The position numbers and the translations under genes were made by a program. The notes below the pieces were generated by a model that was given only the letters and a program-made list of their open reading frames with translations, did not search any database and was not told the origin of the DNA. Shown here one piece after another: positions 2,365 through 39,589 of a stretch of DNA of 39,589 nt (within the stretch, counting starts at the first letter, position 1; every line of letters begins with the position of its first letter). This DNA comes from Halovulum marinum (GTDB lineage Bacteria; Pseudomonadota; Alphaproteobacteria; Rhodobacterales; Rhodobacteraceae), in the NCBI RefSeq assembly GCF_009697225.1, contig NZ_WIND01000026.1:1-39589 (forward strand). Reading direction: 5' to 3'.

Positions 2365-3068
2365 GTGCCGTACCCGCGGACCATCGCGCCGGCCAGCAGC
2401 GACCAGCCGTCGGCGAGGACGAAGAACGCCAGTTTGAACGGCAGGGAAACCACGGCGGGCGGCACCATCATCATACCCATCGACATCAGGATCGCAGCGA
2501 CCACCAAGTCGATAATCAGGAACGGTAAAAAAACCAGAAACCCGACCTCGAAGCCGCGCTGGATCTCGGACAGCATGAATCCGGGGATCAGCACCGACAG
2601 GCCGGGCGGACCCTCGACGGTCTTGCCGGCGGCGTCGGCCAGCAGGTCGACGGTGTCGGGGTCGGTGCGCGAGAGCATGAACGCGCGGAACGGCTCCACC
2701 CCGCGGGCGAACGCGGTCTCGGCGTCGATCTGACCGTCGATGGCGGGGCGCACGGCTTCGGTCCAGGCGGCCTGGAACACCGGCTCCATCACGAAATAGG
2801 TCAGGAACATCGCCAGGCTGACGATCATCATGTTCGGGGGCGCCTGCTGCACGCCGATCGCCTGCCGCAGGATCGACAGCACCGTCACCATGAACGGAAA
2901 GCAGGTCACCATGATCGCCAGCCCCGGCGCCAGGCTGAGCACGGTGATCAGCAGGAACAGCTGCACCGTGCGCAGGCTGAGCGAGCCGTCGCCGCCGAGA
3001 TCGATCATCACCTCCTGCGCCGCGGCGGGACCTGCCAGCAGCAGCCCCGCCAGCAGGAGCGGCAACAC
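2361..3068 (-). CDS. fliP: Flagellar export gate protein FliP
   Basis: A 235-residue FliP, one of the three subunits (FliP/FliQ/FliR) that form the export channel inside the MS ring. It has a cleavable-type signal at residues 1-17 ending AAAQ. Three family blocks follow: LSLAPGLAIMVTCFPF, QQAPPNMMIVSLAMFLTYFVM and the C-terminal helical pair around FLIIDLVVAAILMSMGMMM. The start is a GTG at 3068, 12 bases downstream of the fliN stop. It overlaps fliG by four bases. FliO, which stabilises FliP elsewhere, was not found in the window. Confidence 0.95.
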   Translation of the reverse strand: MLPLLLAGLLLAGPAAAQEVMIDLGGDGSLSLRTVQLFLLITVLSLAPGLAIMVTCFPFMVTVLSILRQAIGVQQAPPNMMIVSLAMFLTYFVMEPVFQAAWTEAVRPAIDGQIDAETAFARGVEPFRAFMLSRTDPDTVDLLADAAGKTVEGPPGLSVLIPGFMLSEIQRGFEVGFLVFLPFLIIDLVVAAILMSMGMMMVPPAVVSLPFKLAFFVLADGWSLLAGAMVRGYGT

Positions 3069-3080
3069 GCGTCGCAGGGC

Positions 3081-3428
3081 CTAGACTCCCTTGGACAGGT
3101 CCGCGACCTCGGTCAGGCGCACGCCCAGCCGGCCCGACCCGTCATCCATTTCCTGCAGCTCGCCGCGGGCGATCAGCCGCTCGCCGATGTACATCTCGAC
3201 CGGATCGTCGATGCGGCTGTTCAGCGTCACCACGCTGTCGCGGCGCAGCTTGACCAGGTCCGAGACCAGCGGCCGCGCCTTGCCGACCGAGATCATCACC
3301 TCGATCGGCACGCCCATCAGCGCGCTTTCGCGGCGGCCGTCGCGCCGGTCGGGGGCGTCGACGGGCGTGGGCGGCAGGCTGCCGGCGATCGGCGTCTGCC
3401 CGGGGTGGTTGTCGGTGTCATCCTGCAT
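3081..3428 (-). CDS. fliN: Flagellar motor switch protein FliN
   Basis: A 115-residue FliN, part of the C-ring that binds the export sorting platform and, with FliM, receives CheY-P. The first 35 residues are polar and variable. Residues about 38-110 form one SpoA fold with the typical VPIEVMISVGKARPLVSDL opening and DDPVEMYIGERLIARGE core. Its first 11 bases overlap the end of fliH. FliM, its usual partner, is not encoded in this window. Confidence 0.92.
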   Translation of the reverse strand: MQDDTDNHPGQTPIAGSLPPTPVDAPDRRDGRRESALMGVPIEVMISVGKARPLVSDLVKLRRDSVVTLNSRIDDPVEMYIGERLIARGELQEMDDGSGRLGVRLTEVADLSKGV

Positions 3429-4035
3429 GACGTATCTCCTCGGCGTCCAGAATGGGCGCGGCCGTCGCGGCCAGCGCCCGGTCCAGGCGGGCCACGGCGC
3501 CGCCCAGGTCGATCGTCTGGAACCCGTCGTCCCAGTGCACCTGCGCCTCGAGCGGGGTCAGCCGCGCATCGGCGGTCACCGCGCAGTCCGCGCCGAGCGC
3601 CGCCAGCGCCTGTTGCAGCCCGGGCAGCGATTCTTCCGCGCAGCGGATCGTCGGCGCCGGGTCGGGCCGCTCGCGCAGCGCGCGCTCGACCTCCTCGGCG
3701 ACATGGTCGGCCAGGCCGGCGCGGGCCAGGCCCGGCGCCAGCCGCGCGACCAGCGTTCGCACCAGCGGGGCGATGCCCGACAGGATGCGGGCCTGGGATT
3801 CGAGCTGACCGTGGCGCTGATCGCGGATCGCCTCGACCAGCGCGGCGCGCAGCTGGTCCTGGGCCTCGGCATGCACCTTGGCGGCGGCCTCGGTACCGTC
3901 CTGGACGCCGGCGGCATGGCCGGCGTCCCAGGCCTCGGCCAGCTGCCTTTCGACGTCCGGGCCGGGGCCGTTGGCCGGCTGCGCCGCGGGCGCGGCCGAG
4001 GGCGAGAACACCTGCAGGAGAACGGGACGGGTCAT
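3418..4035 (-). CDS. fliH: Flagellar assembly protein FliH-like
   Basis: A 205-residue protein placed between fliF and fliN, where FliH, the regulator of the FliI ATPase, belongs. Visible features fit: an N-terminal segment with alanine/glutamate heptads (AWDAGHAAGVQDGTEAAAKV, a GxxxG-like helix pattern typical of FliH) and a C-terminal globular part ending in a VHWDDGFQTIDLGG block like the FliH/SctL stator domain. Overall conservation in this family is low, so the call rests on pattern plus position. Its ATG overlaps the fliF stop by four bases and its end overlaps fliN. Confidence 0.75.
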   Translation of the reverse strand: MTRPVLLQVFSPSAAPAAQPANGPGPDVERQLAEAWDAGHAAGVQDGTEAAAKVHAEAQDQLRAALVEAIRDQRHGQLESQARILSGIAPLVRTLVARLAPGLARAGLADHVAEEVERALRERPDPAPTIRCAEESLPGLQQALAALGADCAVTADARLTPLEAQVHWDDGFQTIDLGGAVARLDRALAATAAPILDAEEIRHAG

Positions 4036-5606
4036 CGGCTGTATCCTTCGGGCTGTTCCGGTGCCTCGATCCAGCGTCGCAGGATGTCGGCGCTTTCATC
4101 GCGGCGATCGGTCATCAGATCGCGCAGCTTGCCGATCCGGGTGTGTTCCGGGGTCGGCAGCGCGGCGGGGGCGGCGGAGGCGATCGCCTCGGCCGCGGAC
4201 GCGGCGGCGCCCAGCGCCGGCAGGTCCGCTTCGGCCGGCGCGGGCAGCGCCGCCGGCCGGCTGAGCAGCGGCCGGACCACGAAGATGCCCAGCAGCAGCA
4301 CGACGATGCCCAGCACCGCGGTCTGCACAAGGCCCAGCACCGATCCGTCGAGCAGGCTGAAGGCCGGCGCGCCTGCGGTCGTGCCGCGGTCCGGCGCGGC
4401 CGGGAACTCCAGCGTCTGCAGGCTGATCCGGTCGCCCCGCGCCGGGTCGAAGCCGACCGCGCTCTCGACCAGCTCGCGCAGCGCGGCCATCTCCTCCTCG
4501 GGCCGGGGCGCCCAGCTGCGGCCGCCGTCCCCGTCGACGGTGGTGATGCCGTCGACCATCACCGCGACGCTGATGCGCCGGATCTGGCCGGGCTGGATGA
4601 TTCGCTCGCGCCGGGTTTCGGAGACCTCGAAGTTCTGCCGCTCGCGGGTCTCGCTGCGGTTGCTCTGGGTTCCTGCGCCGTCCTTTGCGGCATCGCCGGC
4701 GGGCAGGTTGCTGGCGACGGTCACGGCGCCGCCAGCGTTGCCTTCGGCCGATTCGCTGACCTCCTCCAGGTCGCTGGAGATCGCCACGCGGCTGGTCGGG
4801 TCGATCACCCGCTCGGTGATCGTCTGGCTGTCCATGTCGGCGTCGATGTTGACCTCGACCCGCGCCTTGCCCGGGCCGACGCGCGCCGACAGCAGCCGCT
4901 CCAGGTTGGCCTTCATCTGCGCCGCGCGGGGGTCGGCGGCGGCGGGATCCGCGCCGCTGTCGGACCCGCCCTCGCCGGCCAGAACGACGCCGTTGACGCT
5001 GTCGATCACCGCGACATCCGCACCCGCCAGCCCGGCCACGGCCGAGGAGACCAGATAGCGGATCGCCTGCGCCTGCGCCGTGTCCACCGCGCCGCGGGCC
5101 GGGGTCACGGTGACCGAGGCGGTGACCGGCTGCGGCCGCGCGAACGGCTGCTGCGGCGGCGTGGCGAGGTGCACGCGGGCGGCGCGGATGTCGCGGCTGG
5201 CCAGGATCGTGCGCGCCAGCTCGCCCTCCTTCGCTCGCCAGTAGGCGGCGTCGAACATCTGCGCGGTGGTGCCGAAGCCGCTCATCGAATCGAGCAGCTC
5301 GTAGCCGACGCCGCCCGCGGCCGGCAGGCCCTCGGCGGCCAGCGACAGCCGCGTCGAATCGCGGACCGAGGCATCGACGTAGATCGAGCCGCCGCGCACC
5401 TCGAACGCGGTGCCGGACGCCTCGAGCGCGGCGACGACCTCGCCTGCCGTGGCCGGTTCCAGCCCCGCGTACAGAAGCGCCATGTCGTTGCTGGACGCCA
5501 GCCGCAGGATGGTGGCGAAGGAAATCACCATGGCCAGTGCGGCCAGGGCGACGATCATCTTGCGCCTGCTATCGAGGGCAGCCCATCCGGACAGGATCTG
5601 GTTCAC
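4032..5606 (-). CDS. fliF: Flagellar MS-ring protein FliF
   Basis: A 524-residue FliF, the membrane ring on which the basal body assembles. A first membrane helix is at residues about 18-38. The periplasmic ring-building motifs follow: ALLYAGLEPATAGEVVAALE, then RAKEGELARTILASRDIRAARVHLA. A second helix lies near residues 435-460 (LGLVQTAVLGIVVLLLGIFV), followed by a cytoplasmic tail rich in Ala and Pro. The tail should bind FliG. It is the first gene of the minus-strand operon and is divergent from fliL, with a 132-base shared control region. Confidence 0.95.
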   Translation of the reverse strand: MNQILSGWAALDSRRKMIVALAALAMVISFATILRLASSNDMALLYAGLEPATAGEVVAALEASGTAFEVRGGSIYVDASVRDSTRLSLAAEGLPAAGGVGYELLDSMSGFGTTAQMFDAAYWRAKEGELARTILASRDIRAARVHLATPPQQPFARPQPVTASVTVTPARGAVDTAQAQAIRYLVSSAVAGLAGADVAVIDSVNGVVLAGEGGSDSGADPAAADPRAAQMKANLERLLSARVGPGKARVEVNIDADMDSQTITERVIDPTSRVAISSDLEEVSESAEGNAGGAVTVASNLPAGDAAKDGAGTQSNRSETRERQNFEVSETRRERIIQPGQIRRISVAVMVDGITTVDGDGGRSWAPRPEEEMAALRELVESAVGFDPARGDRISLQTLEFPAAPDRGTTAGAPAFSLLDGSVLGLVQTAVLGIVVLLLGIFVVRPLLSRPAALPAPAEADLPALGAAASAAEAIASAAPAALPTPEHTRIGKLRDLMTDRRDESADILRRWIEAPEQPEGYSR

Positions 5607-35371: not shown

Positions 35372-36645
35372 GCCTGGGCCGCCAGCGCGCCCGTCAGCCG
35401 GTTTTCGGCGCTGCCGGTCAGGCGGACCTGCACGATCCGCCCCTCGGGCGCGCCGCCGACGACGTCCACCTCGGCGAAGCCCGGAGTGCGGCCACGGGTC
35501 GAGCTCTCCATCAACACCGGCTCGGTGCGGCCGGTCATCGCCGAGAGGTGCCGGGCGACCTGCCGTTCCCCCAGTGCCCGCAGCCGCGCGGCCCGGTCCC
35601 TGATCGCCGCGCCGTCCACGGCGGGCATGCGCGCGGCGGGGGTGCCCTTGCGCGCCGAATAGGGAAAGACGTGCAGCCAGGTCAGCCCGCACTCCTCGAC
35701 CAGCTTCAGCGAGTTCTCGAACATCGCCTCGGTCTCGGTCGGGAACCCGGCGATGATGTCGGCGCCGAACACGATCTCGGGGCGCAGGCGGCGGGCTTCC
35801 TCGCAGAAGCGGATGGCGTCGTCGCGCAAGTGGCGGCGCTTCATCCGCTTCAGGATCATGTCGTCGCCCGCCTGCAGGCTCAGGTGCAGATGCGGCATCA
35901 GCCGGGGCTGCCCCGCGATCGCCTCCATCAGCGCAGGATCGGCCTCAATCGAGTCGATCGAGCTGATCCTGAGGCGCGGCAGGTCCGGCACCAGCTTCAG
36001 GATGCGCTGCACCAGATCGCCCAGGCGCGGCTCTCCCGGCAGGTCGGCGCCCCAGCTGGTCAGGTCGACCCCGGTCAGCACGACCTCCTGGTAGCCGCTG
36101 CCGACCAGCCGCGCGATCTGCTCGACCACGACACCGGCGGGAACCGAGCGCGAGTTGCCCCGGCCATAGGGGATGATGCAGAAGGTGCAGCGATGATCGC
36201 AGCCGTTCTGCACCTGCACATAGGCGCGCGCGCGGGTGCCGAAGCCGTCGATCAGGTGACCGGCGGTTTCGGTCGCGGACATGATGTCGTTGACCTGCAC
36301 CTTCTCGGTCCGGCCGATGAAATCCGGGCCCCTGGCGACGCCTTCCCAGGTCTCGGCGCGCATCTTCTCGAGGTTGCCGATCACCAGATCGACCTCGGGC
36401 ATCGCGGCATAGGTCTCGGGCTCGGTCTGCGCGGCGCAGCCGGTGACGACGATCCTTGCGTCCGGATGCTCGCGGCGCAGCCGGCGGATGCGCTGGCGCG
36501 ACTGGCGCACGGCCTCGGCGGTGACGGCGCAGGTGTTGACGACGACGGTGTCGCCCAGCCCGGCGGCCGCGCCCAGCTCGCGCATGGCCTCGGTCTCGTA
36601 GGCGTTCAGCCGGCAGCCGAAGGTCTCGAAGACGGGGGGCTTCAT
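35353..36645 (-). CDS. mtaB: tRNA t6A37 methylthiotransferase MtaB
   Basis: A 430-residue radical-SAM enzyme that adds a methylthio group to N6-threonylcarbamoyladenosine at tRNA position 37. The N-terminal UPF0004 domain has ETFGCRLNAYE and VVNTCAVTAEA. The radical-SAM cluster motif is C149-xxx-C153-xx-C156 in NGCDHRCTFCIIPYGRG, and a TRAM-like C-terminus follows. GCRLN plus CAVT favour MtaB over MiaB and RimO. It modifies tRNAs reading ANN codons, which include tRNA-Lys(TTT) encoded nearby. It follows dapF with a four-base overlap. Confidence 0.92.
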   Translation of the reverse strand: MKPPVFETFGCRLNAYETEAMRELGAAAGLGDTVVVNTCAVTAEAVRQSRQRIRRLRREHPDARIVVTGCAAQTEPETYAAMPEVDLVIGNLEKMRAETWEGVARGPDFIGRTEKVQVNDIMSATETAGHLIDGFGTRARAYVQVQNGCDHRCTFCIIPYGRGNSRSVPAGVVVEQIARLVGSGYQEVVLTGVDLTSWGADLPGEPRLGDLVQRILKLVPDLPRLRISSIDSIEADPALMEAIAGQPRLMPHLHLSLQAGDDMILKRMKRRHLRDDAIRFCEEARRLRPEIVFGADIIAGFPTETEAMFENSLKLVEECGLTWLHVFPYSARKGTPAARMPAVDGAAIRDRAARLRALGERQVARHLSAMTGRTEPVLMESSTRGRTPGFAEVDVVGGAPEGRIVQVRLTGSAENRLTGALAAQAQVRAG

Positions 36646-37478
36646 GTCAGCGGCAGCGCCGGTGACAGCACCCCTTCGAAGACCTCCTGCGTCGGGCCGG
36701 TGATCCAGACGCCATCCTCGCGCCAGTCGACATGCAGCGTGCCGCCGTCGACGACCACCGTCGCCGCCCGGTCGGTCAGCCCGCGCCGGGCGGCCGCCAC
36801 CAGCGCCGCGCAGGCGCAGGAGCCCGAGGCCAGCGTGATCCCCACGCCCCGCTCCCAGATGCGCAGGCGCAGCCGGTCGCGGGCCCGAACCTCGACCATC
36901 TCGACATTGGTGCGTTGCGGGTAGAGCGGGTCGGTCTCGAACCGCCGGCCCTGCGCGGCGATGTCGGCGTTCTCGGCATCGTCGGTGAAGAACACGCAAT
37001 GCGGGTTGCCCATGCTCAGCGCGACGGGGCCGCCGTCCAGCGGCAGCTTCAGCGTGTCCGTCTCGCGCGCCAGCGGCACCTCCCGCCAGTCCAGCGCCGG
37101 ACGACCCATGTTGACCCGGGTCAGCCGATCGCCCGCGTCCTCGGCCACCAGCACGTCGAAATCGGTGCGCAGGGTGACGCGGGCGGCTCCGGTCTCGTCC
37201 ATCAAGCGCCGCGCGACGCAGCGGGTGGCGTTGCCGCAGGCCCCCGACAGGCTGCCGTCGGCATTCCAGAAGGTCAGGCGGACGGTCTCCTGCGGATCGT
37301 CGTGGATCACCGCCAGCTGGTCGAAGCCCACGCCCCGGTGCCGGTCGCCCAGCGCCCGCGCCAGGGCAGGCGTGACCGGGTCGACGCCGCCCCGGGCGTC
37401 GACGACCACGAAGTCATTGCCCAGCCCATGCATCTTGACGAAGCGCAGGACAGGCGCGGTTTCGGCAGCCTGAGTCAT
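36642..37478 (-). CDS. dapF: Diaminopimelate epimerase
   Basis: A 278-residue DapF that converts LL- to meso-diaminopimelate for lysine and peptidoglycan. Motifs are MHGLGNDFVVVDA, the first catalytic cysteine Cys81 in SGACGNATRC, and the second, Cys221, in LASGSCACAA. Both halves of the pseudo-symmetric fold are complete. No ribosome-binding site precedes the ATG; instead a TATATC -10-like box ends seven bases before it. It is the promoter-proximal gene of a dapF-mtaB pair. Confidence 0.96.
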   Translation of the reverse strand: MTQAAETAPVLRFVKMHGLGNDFVVVDARGGVDPVTPALARALGDRHRGVGFDQLAVIHDDPQETVRLTFWNADGSLSGACGNATRCVARRLMDETGAARVTLRTDFDVLVAEDAGDRLTRVNMGRPALDWREVPLARETDTLKLPLDGGPVALSMGNPHCVFFTDDAENADIAAQGRRFETDPLYPQRTNVEMVEVRARDRLRLRIWERGVGITLASGSCACAALVAAARRGLTDRAATVVVDGGTLHVDWREDGVWITGPTQEVFEGVLSPALPLT

Positions 37479-37485
37479 GGCGCGT

Positions 37486-37491
37486 GATATA
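37486..37491 (-). promoter_or_regulatory. dapF -10 box, possible leaderless start
   Basis: On the minus strand TATATC is followed by ACGCGCC and the dapF ATG, the same seven-base spacing and nearly the same spacer (CCGCGCC) as at hemC. No clear -35 is visible. This suggests that the transcript starts at or next to the start codon. Confidence 0.4.
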
Positions 37492-37552
37492 TGCGCATGC
37501 AGCCGCCGGCGCCAGACCTCGGGTGCAACACGGAAATCCGCCGATTTGCCCC

Positions 37553-37581
37553 TTGACCTGCGGCGCCGCTCCGTCTATTTC
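37553..37581 (+). promoter_or_regulatory. tRNA-Lys promoter
   Basis: TTGACC (37553-37558), 17-base spacer, TATTTC (37576-37581). The -35 matches TTGACA at five of six bases. The -10 ends 12 bases before the tRNA, which suits a short tRNA leader. Confidence 0.6.
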
Positions 37582-37593
37582 CGCGGCCTGCGT

Positions 37594-37669
37594 GGGCCGT
37601 TAGCTCAGTTGGTAGAGCAACTGACTTTTAATCAGTGGGTCGCAGGTTCGAATCCTGCACGGCTCACCA
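37594..37669 (+). tRNA. tRNA-Lys (anticodon TTT), CCA encoded
   Basis: A complete 76-base cloverleaf. The acceptor stem GGGCCGT pairs with ACGGCTC (one G-T pair), followed by A and an encoded CCA. The D-arm has TAGCTCAGTTGGTAGAGCA. The anticodon stem ACTGA/TCAGT encloses CTTTTAA, giving anticodon TTT. The T-arm contains GGTTCGAATCC. Composition changes sharply just after its 3' end, as at tRNA-borne integration sites. Confidence 0.97.
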
Positions 37670-38362
37670 CGTTTACCTTTGTTATCAATGCCTTGAGGGC
37701 TGCCGGTTTTGTCGGCGGCGCGCTTTGCGTTCTGCCGGAAGCAATACGGAAGCACGGCGACAAGAAAGGTAGCGGCAGTCTAAGTGTGGTTAGATCGCAA
37801 CGGCCTTGTTGGGCGCGATAGCCGAGCTGCCTTGATGGCGACTAGGAGCGTCCCTTTTTCAATTCAGGCATGAACTTTCGCGATAGTGCAGTCTGCTGCC
37901 GTTCGCCTCGTTTCACTCGCGCCGTGTGGGGCGGTTTCCGGTCGTACGCTGCGCTGGACACAAACGGCGGTGATGCGCTTAAATCCGACTATTGTCGCCG
38001 TACCAAAGTTGGCGACGCATCGTAAGAACCGAGTTTGCGATCAGAACACCCGCGATGGACCTGATCGATACTTTCGACGTAAACTGATCATCCTGACATC
38101 GAAAATCGGCCACACCAGATCGTCCCAATGCGGGACCACCAACCCGTGAAACAAGATTCATTTGTTCCAGCCCGACAGAAAACGTCTTACATGGAGAGAA
38201 CCGAAAAGAGGACGGCACGATAGCACGAAGAGAAAGTCGTAGGTTGAAGCCTTCGTAGAAAGCCTTCTTTGACATGCCTGAAGACTTTTCCAACATCAGA
38301 AACTCCGTTCAAAAACTGTCATCACTCGCCGAATGTGAATTTTACCTGAGGAGTCTAAATTT
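37670..38362. other. Gene-poor, AT-richer stretch after tRNA-Lys
   Basis: About 690 bases with no gene that can be supported. Base composition is clearly lower in G+C than the preceding 37 kb. Frames at 37886-38149 (plus) and 37979-38296 (minus) lack recognisable similarity and normal codon pattern. This is probably non-coding or decayed sequence at the edge of acquired DNA. GAGGAG about ten bases before 38363 is the ribosome-binding site of the next gene. Confidence 0.55.
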
Positions 38363-39556
38363 ATGGCAAACAACTCATTTGACGAGTTCCATAGGCGTTT
38401 AAACTTGGCGCGGGTTGGCGGTGCTATCTTGTTCTGCGGCGCAGGTTTTTCCGCGGATTGCCTGAATTTCAAGCCGGATGACACCCTCGGCACGGGCGCG
38501 CAGCTGCTCGACCTCTTCAATGACGAACTTAGTCAGCAGCCACCATACAAGGACCTACGAAATGCCGCCGATGCACTACAGGAAAAGATTGGCGACAACG
38601 GCATGATGACACTCCTGAAAGAGCGGTTTACCGTTTCCAACGTAACTGCTGATATGGCCGATCTTTTACGCTACCCATGGCAAGCGGTCTACACGACAAA
38701 TTACGACGATGCTCTCGAGATTGCGGCAAAGGCCGCGATCAAACCGGTCGAGGCGATCAATAACTCCGACGATCCCGACACGGCCGCGCAAAATCTCCCG
38801 ATCATCCATCTACACGGCTATGTGCAGAAATGGGACATACACAACTTTCGCGATAGCTGCGTGCTCGGCGCAGAGAGCTACTCGAAGCTTACCAGTGCAA
38901 AGAACTGGCTCGACCGCTTTCGGCGCGACATCGACCAGGCTCAGATCGTAGTCTTCGTCGGGTTCAATGCTGGCGATTTCCACTTAAATCAAGCGATCAA
39001 CGACCTGACAGGTTTGCGTGGAAAGGCCTTTTTTATCAATCGACCGACCGCACAAGCCGACCCTGATGTCACCGCCGCCCAAACGCGACTCGGCACACCA
39101 TTCTTCATGGGCCGTGCGGGACTTGCCACTACGATCAGAGAACTTCTGGCCAAGGATGCACCGAAAGTGCCGCAACTTGCCAGCTTCGCAAAATACACAC
39201 CCTCAGAACCCGCGGCTACGGTTCCCACACAAATCCAGATTGAAGACCTGTTTCTATATGGAAAAGTAGAACCGTCGCAGCTCGCGCGGGATTGGTCCAA
39301 CAATTTATCCGAATATCACATGCAACGCAGCGCCACACAAGAAATTCTGGCCGCTATCGCTGATGACGCCCGAATTCTACTTCTTGAGGGATATCCCTGT
39401 GATGGCAAGACCCTGCTCACAGCCGATCTTGCCTATCGCCTCTCGGGGGGGAGACCGGTCTACCAAATGCGCCAAGCTTATGAAAACGTGCTGAACGAGG
39501 TCGCAGACATTCTTGAGCTACTCCCCATTCGTTGGACAGTTTCCTACGCGATTTAA
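38363..39556 (+). CDS. SIR2-domain protein with P-loop, apparently truncated (defence-like)
   Basis: A 397-residue frame. Residues about 18-240 form a SIR2-like NAD-binding domain: GAGFS at 26-30, TTNYDD with Asn113, HLHG at 149-152, and FVGFNAGDFHLNQAI. After a linker, a P-loop GYPCDGKT (343-350) opens an NTPase domain that stops 47 residues later. This order is that of SIR2-STAND antiphage proteins, in which phage sensing triggers NAD+ depletion. The missing NTPase remainder and sensor suggest truncation by frameshift or insertion; the closing residues PIRWTVSYAI do not look like a continuation. Codon use is AT-richer than in the flagellar genes, a sign of transfer. Confidence 0.75.
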   Translation: MANNSFDEFHRRLNLARVGGAILFCGAGFSADCLNFKPDDTLGTGAQLLDLFNDELSQQPPYKDLRNAADALQEKIGDNGMMTLLKERFTVSNVTADMADLLRYPWQAVYTTNYDDALEIAAKAAIKPVEAINNSDDPDTAAQNLPIIHLHGYVQKWDIHNFRDSCVLGAESYSKLTSAKNWLDRFRRDIDQAQIVVFVGFNAGDFHLNQAINDLTGLRGKAFFINRPTAQADPDVTAAQTRLGTPFFMGRAGLATTIRELLAKDAPKVPQLASFAKYTPSEPAATVPTQIQIEDLFLYGKVEPSQLARDWSNNLSEYHMQRSATQEILAAIADDARILLLEGYPCDGKTLLTADLAYRLSGGRPVYQMRQAYENVLNEVADILELLPIRWTVSYAI

Positions 39557-39589
39557 GCTACTCTCTGCCCCTGCTGGTCGGTTTCGATC

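Follow-up and report, generated by a model that had tools for sequence, protein, structure and literature searches.

The open reading frame (ORF) at positions 38363-39556 on the forward strand of the 39,589-nucleotide stretch of Halovulum marinum DNA analysed here, hereafter the window, raises the question whether it encodes a complete short SIR2 protein or merely what is left of a longer one. The frame comprises 397 residues and contains the motifs GAGFS, TTNYDD and HLHG, followed by the Walker A sequence GYPCDGKT at residues 343-350, and ends 47 residues after the latter. An initial annotation had described this arrangement of SIR2 motifs, P-loop and early stop, and both the frame and its motifs were found as stated; it had left the choice between a broken SIR2-STAND gene and a two-gene arrangement. 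We consider it very probable that the frame represents the 5' half of an Avs5-like SIR2-STAND gene which was cut by an IS3-family element between the Walker A and Walker B motifs, and which belongs to the cargo of a mobile element at a tRNA-Lys gene.

The native part of the gene spans positions 38363-39513 (+), that is, 383 complete codons and two additional nucleotides, and is 76-83% identical to 11 full-length homologues. A possible ribosome-binding site, GAGGAG, can be read at 38348-38353 (+). The SIR2 domain covers approximately residues 1-270 (38363-39172, +), the outer boundary near residue 270 being an estimate from the structure model of a relative (L022, see below), and Pfam SIR2_2 matched residues 108-221 with 59.9 bits at a cut-off of 24.5. 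Residues N113 and G152 are invariant across 21 aligned sequences and H151 is present in the window protein, which accordingly has the N-terminal position of the domain, the catalytic asparagine and the HG/NG motif that characterize this group. The Walker A motif of the STAND NTPase (39389-39412, +) was assigned by alignment, together with a weak match to nSTAND_NTPase5 that stayed below the Pfam cut-off (21.3 versus 34). A complete STAND NTPase with both Walker A and Walker B is absent in the window gene, which is cut at residue 383, and the C-terminal helical sensor is absent from the window. The GC content of the gene is 53.8% compared to 69.8% for the window, a composition suggesting that the gene was probably acquired horizontally. 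No stop occurs within the 383 native codons, and dN/dS (NG86) was 0.11-0.14 against nine intact relatives, L028 and L029 being left out of the 11, which is similar to the 0.09-0.14 obtained in the five printed pairs of intact relatives. As most of this divergence predates the break, the values show just the absence of visible decay.

The window is a whole contig (C19 of the assembly) that ends within an insertion sequence of the IS3 family: positions 39514-39589, the final 76 bases, form a terminus of this element, which runs off the contig end. In a search of the organism's own genome with the gene, the last 76-77 bases recurred at the ends of C66, C34 and C27, on C40 at either end, and at an internal position of C4, amounting to six left ends of the insertion sequence at contig ends, C19 included, and one within C4. 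All copies part ways at the same base, and the common stretch starts with TGAGCTACTCC at 39514. The junction falls within codon 384, and all that follows in the frame, residues 385-397 with the TAA stop codon (39515-39556, +), consists of insertion sequence; the identical tail, ELLPIRWTVSYAI, terminates a different ORF that runs into the C4 copy. The frame therefore has no natural end, since the DNA from 39514 onward belongs to the terminus of a repeat that recurs on other contigs. On its minus strand, the C4 copy appears to encode the C-terminal end of an IS3 transposase, and over 315 nt it shares 90.5% identity with an element of the Roseivivax plasmid NZ_CP045322.1 that is annotated as IS3 family; it is itself incomplete, the plasmid element being matched just to base 323. 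Right ends of the insertion sequence were located at five contig ends (C55, C26, C32, C39 and C36), one fewer than left ends. Elements of the IS3 family generate a target-site duplication of 3 bp. Upon pairing of the flanks by such duplications, GTT was common to the left flank on C34 and the right flank on C39 only, and the TCT flank of C19 had no partner at any of the five right flanks. The simplest reading of the loss of the second half of the gene is an insertion combined with an adjacent deletion, at a junction that is known from the assembly alone. The surroundings of two of these copies were also noted: on C4 (L008:765-1576), a tRNA-Ser gene precedes a short ORF that resembles the start of an integrase and runs into the same IS3-family element, itself truncated, and C40 (L102, 6606 bp), which has the same left end at both contig ends in opposite orientation, harbors a gene for a 523-residue serine recombinase (Pfam Resolvase and Recombinase).

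To determine what the gene looks like when undisturbed, homologues of the 383-residue part were collected in one genome_contigs scan, an approach detecting close relatives only. Eleven loci were recovered with 76-83% identity over 377-383 residues, all of them from alphaproteobacteria by record title, bar one metagenome-assembled genome labelled Salinicola. In each of the 11 the homologue is a single ORF of 813-821 residues, so that homologues of the length of the window frame, which according to the initial annotation would have spoken against a truncation, were not widespread; among viral-contig relatives, 11 of 12 had 807-853 residues. A distant family relative in a 114-kb viral contig (L114:5983-6738) is a SIR2-only ORF of 252 residues. 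Within up to 5 kb around the 11 loci, no ORF other than the SIR2-STAND gene itself was held in common (blastp, 1e-6), and by these mechanically called ORFs the gene occurs in the single-gene form in which Avs5 acts. Among 146 genomes of host relatives, the organism's own included, just three others yielded matches, all distant (24-28%), and the gene was not found in the two genomes of the same genus. The phage collection gave no match to the 383-residue part, and the plasmid collection gave 33 matching records, every one below 60% identity. Additional scans of viral contigs added no new records to those already collected.

The missing half, corresponding to 1.29 kb, was not recovered from the host. 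A query with the last 439 residues of the undisrupted L022 protein from Tranquillimonas had no match in the 4.63-Mb host genome, and the same query matched all four control genomes carrying the gene. A tblastn search of 36 loci, comprising small contigs and stretches flanking the insertion sequence, gave three hits at chance level (best E 1.1). The smallest contig among the 64 of 74 that were sized measures 1009 bp, and a short piece of the missing half of less than 1 kb could reside in a contig dropped from the assembly, given that the insertion sequence has one right end fewer than left ends. Reading on downstream of 39589, as had been proposed, led to no such sequence in the assembly, because the window is the whole contig.

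A first structure model based on 12 close sequences was poor (pLDDT 53.8) and was dropped. An AlphaFold2 model of the intact protein of Tranquillimonas rosea (L022) reached a mean pLDDT of 85 and a pTM of 0.75; it was built from 21 sequences, namely the window part together with 10 of the 11 close homologues and 10 of the 12 relatives from viral contigs, to the exclusion of L026, L107 and L114. In this model the cut lies within helix 376-386, behind Walker A (343-350) and ahead of strand 391-394, on which Walker B is expected. In a Foldseek search against the PDB, the first match was EfAvs5, the Avs5 of Escherichia fergusonii (9jap, 'Helical structure of EfAvs5(SIR2-STAND)', E 2.2e-34, 862 columns), followed by chains of the AVAST5 filament 9nc9, human SAMD9 and DSR2. 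The best sequence match was also 9jap (phmmer, 6e-40, L022 residues 7-716). Over the whole chain, the model and 9jap gave a TM-score of 0.48 and an rmsd of 23.4, a moderate agreement for which our guess is a different placement of domains; from this comparison, the intact relatives were counted as having an EfAvs5-like full-length fold. They share the domain order of EfAvs5 over nearly the full length with 19% identity of L022 in the structural alignment, and the window copy differs by its cut at residue 383. A further difference is the HG motif of the window protein in place of NG in L110, a 9jap-like relative; according to PMC12931631, both motifs occur in the SIR2 domain of Avs5.

The NCBIfam model for Avs5, NF041814, was not reached, with 16.1 bits for the window part at a cut-off of 1000 and L022 unlisted at E<=0.01. 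L110 is very close to 9jap (1867 bits) and likewise had no match at E<=0.001, which indicates that the model is narrow. Across 289 genomes of the class, NF041814 gave two weak matches and none above the cut-off, a result of little weight, as none of 14 control genomes gave a signal either. The family of the window gene has the same SIR2-STAND architecture as PaAvs5, that is, AVAST type 5 (the entry 9nc9 being titled as AVAST5 filament), and a SIR2 domain of a type for which PMC12931631 demonstrates NAD+ hydrolysis on infection. The likeness to DSR2, DSR1, ThsA and LmuA is confined to the SIR2 domain, with 28-31 bits to the PADLOC models of Dsr2, LmuA and ThsA and 11.6 bits to Dsr1, and these matches to the window protein stop inside that domain; DSR2 chains in the PDB have about 1005 residues.

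The intact form is one protein of about 815 residues in which a SIR2 domain is followed by a STAND NTPase and a helical C-terminal region. If it works like EfAvs5 and PaAvs5, it may sense a phage protein via the C-terminus, with the ATPase driving assembly and the SIR2 domain then destroying NAD+. In PMC12931631, the SIR2 domain of Avs5 is reported to hydrolyse NAD+ upon sensing of a phage protein, and immunity by PaAvs5 is described to depend essentially on the ATPase and, for activation, on the C-terminal repeat domain; filament formation is apparently required for the activity of ThsA and Avs5, according to PMC12700824. Insertion of an IS3-family element between the two Walker motifs would sever the STAND NTPase, leaving a half with no visible decay in which the catalytic SIR2 residues are kept and the complete ATPase and the sensor are gone. 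Since neither of these remains, the SIR2 remnant should not respond to phage. The locus then presents a clear case of a defence gene, presumably NAD-depleting, that was switched off by an insertion sequence with its remaining half still undecayed.

Other explanations were weighed against this one. A natural 397-residue SIR2 protein with a partial NTPase, working together with a downstream partner gene, would account for the undecayed SIR2 half and would have a parallel of sorts in the distant SIR2-only ORF of L114. However, the C-terminus of such a protein would be insertion sequence that also ends a different ORF, the break would lie inside a STAND helix ahead of the expected Walker B strand, all 11 close homologues are full length, and no neighbour is common to the 11 loci; we regard this possibility as extremely remote. 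The two-gene system of the initial annotation was rejected on the grounds of the tail derived from the insertion sequence, the single-ORF, full-length homologues and the lack of a common neighbour, with the C-terminal half also not found in the genome. Its other option, a broken gene, was borne out by the homologues and their match to EfAvs5: the window gene is an Avs5-like gene that has been broken, rather than one member of a gene pair.

It appears improbable that the organism has an uninterrupted gene which looks truncated only through an assembly break or a misjoin at a repeat. The window does stop at a contig end within a multi-copy insertion sequence, and contig ends share 75-77 bases in the fashion of a graph assembly. 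However, the junction TCT|TGAGC is internal to C19 and lies at the same base of the insertion sequence as in six other copies, and the 1.29-kb C-terminal half was not found in 4.63 Mb of assembly with contigs down to 1009 bp included. Equally doubtful is that the remnant still works as a SIR2 NADase, either untriggered or in a regulatory role, for instance as a low-activity stress factor or as an inhibitor of other SIR2 filaments. The catalytic asparagine and histidine motifs, the start codon and a possible ribosome-binding site persist, yet the requirements for ATPase and C-terminal repeat domain outlined above for PaAvs5 (PMC12931631) argue against it. The interrupted Avs5-like gene remains the preferred reading.

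The gene lies 693 bp downstream of a tRNA-Lys(ttt) gene (37594-37669, +; ARAGORN), as the initial annotation had pointed out. The tRNA gene turned out to be part of an attachment (att) site, on the attL side of the integrated element, as its 3' part and flank recur on another contig, C14, next to an integrase gene. The repeat was identified in a search of the organism's own genome with positions 36642-37700, which also contain an ORF beside the tRNA gene that looks like dapF, and a second copy of the 3' half of tRNA-Lys was detected at C14:4248. The direct repeat comprises 45 nt of the tRNA 3' end and 36 nt of flank (37625-37705, +) and matches C14:4248-4328 over 81 bp with 95% identity; it begins in the anticodon loop, and weaker similarity continues past 37705, where the query ended. 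On C14, a gene for a 395-residue arm-type tyrosine integrase (2882-4066) is separated from the att copy by 181 bp (4066 to 4248) and is accompanied by a 207-residue ORF and a conserved, 440-residue rep-like ORF. The rep-like gene covers positions 1-333 of 382 of its model and runs out at the left end of the contig, which is another multi-copy repeat and probably a second insertion sequence. Both inner ends of the element are therefore located at multi-copy repeats, with no contiguous sequence linking C19 and C14, and their pairing is suggested by the att repeat and the layout. In the genome G011, the tRNA-Lys gene likewise bears an element, with an integrase 82% identical and a 440-residue protein 57-63% identical to those of C14. 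Three genes of the C14 flank beyond the att copy, compared with the tRNA-Lys loci of relatives, gave one weak match (26%) and no clear synteny. From these sequence features we infer that a small mobile element has inserted at tRNA-Lys and that its other end, with the att copy, the tyrosine integrase and the rep-like gene, lies on C14; the SIR2-STAND gene would have been carried in it as cargo. This insertion site points beyond the broken gene itself to a compact mobile element. Taken alone, the gene is of modest interest; the element family has more to offer and deserves a study of its own.

A profile of the 440-residue protein gave 31 matches at E<=1e-30 in 25 of 345 genomes of the host's family, its own included. 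Twenty loci holding 21 of these matches were inspected, nine matches besides the organism's own being left out, and 13 of the 20 displayed the same layout, in which a stretch of 34-48 nt from the 3' end of the tRNA gene recurs exactly at the opposite end of the element. The tRNA genes targeted by the 13 elements were those for Lys (four), Met (four), Thr (two), Arg (two) and Asn (one), and the elements measured 5.9-9.9 kb. The order tRNA, cargo, rep-like gene and distal att was found in all 13. In 12 of them, the integrase gene lies between the rep-like gene and att at a distance of 169-190 bp from the latter, into which the 181 bp of the host genome fit; L226 had no related integrase at E<=1e-10. 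No such tRNA repeat was present at six inspected loci (L219, L221, L222, L223, L228 and L229), and L148 at a tRNA-Met gene, which adjoins two identical tRNA genes, was ambiguous and was excluded from the 13; its cargo is of the metallo-beta-lactamase and DUF3299 type and not defence. The designation rep-like is a reading of motifs in the protein, which has no Pfam match and matched only phrog_1159 weakly. At L147:15329-16981 (genome G155), a single 550-residue frame, in which Pfam detected no catalytic Phage_integrase domain, joins integrase N-terminal and rep-like C-terminal parts. In the literature searched, no description of the element family stood out, which is weak evidence for its novelty. 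P4-like satellites and tycheposons possess a tyrosine integrase, a site at a tRNA 3' end and defence cargo. The int/rep-like elements share these properties and differ in being 5.9-9.9 kb in size with an integrase, a rep-like protein and one cargo slot; they are possibly satellites of phages or plasmids.

The cargo was analysed by running PADLOC on chosen ORFs with a threshold of 100 bits, as the models come without curated cut-offs in the output. Matches of at least 100 bits were obtained in nine of the 13 elements: ThsB with PDC-M50A/B in L096, type III restriction-modification in L147, type IIG restriction-modification in L226 and L233, a dCTPase in L227, a type I methyltransferase with PtuB and partial PtuA in L230, AbiU over about half of the protein in L231 (101 bits), 'beta' in L225 (109 bits) and Dsr1 in L224. 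The latter, a 1287-residue Dsr1-like SIR2 protein (L224:10710-14573, genome G569; 311.5 bits), forms the large cargo of a related element in tRNA-Met and presumably represents another NAD-depleting type in the same slot. The systems counted in the slot thus range from Avs5-like, Dsr1 and TIR/ThsB with PDC-M50 to type IIG and III restriction-modification, type I methyltransferase with Septu-like PtuA/PtuB, AbiU-like and dCTP deaminase. We somewhat favour the view that the int/rep-like elements of 5.9-9.9 kb in the host's family, which insert into the 3' half of many tRNA genes, with about 45 bp duplicated, and carry mainly single anti-phage systems in one interchangeable slot beside the tRNA, are self-travelling defence cassettes, where 'mainly defence' is a reading of the chosen ORFs rather than an enrichment over a background rate in random genes. 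Comparison of the slot between genomes can serve as a catalogue of defence systems. Only weak PADLOC matches (44 and 34 bits) occurred in L149, and there was no PADLOC match at 1e-5 for an 846-residue DUF4238 protein (L150:10651-13191, genome G037) or a 749-residue protein (L220:5814-8063, genome G617), which makes these two silent slots candidate places for new defence systems. In L232, the cargo of which lay outside the PADLOC scan, the largest ORFs read like glycosyltransferases.
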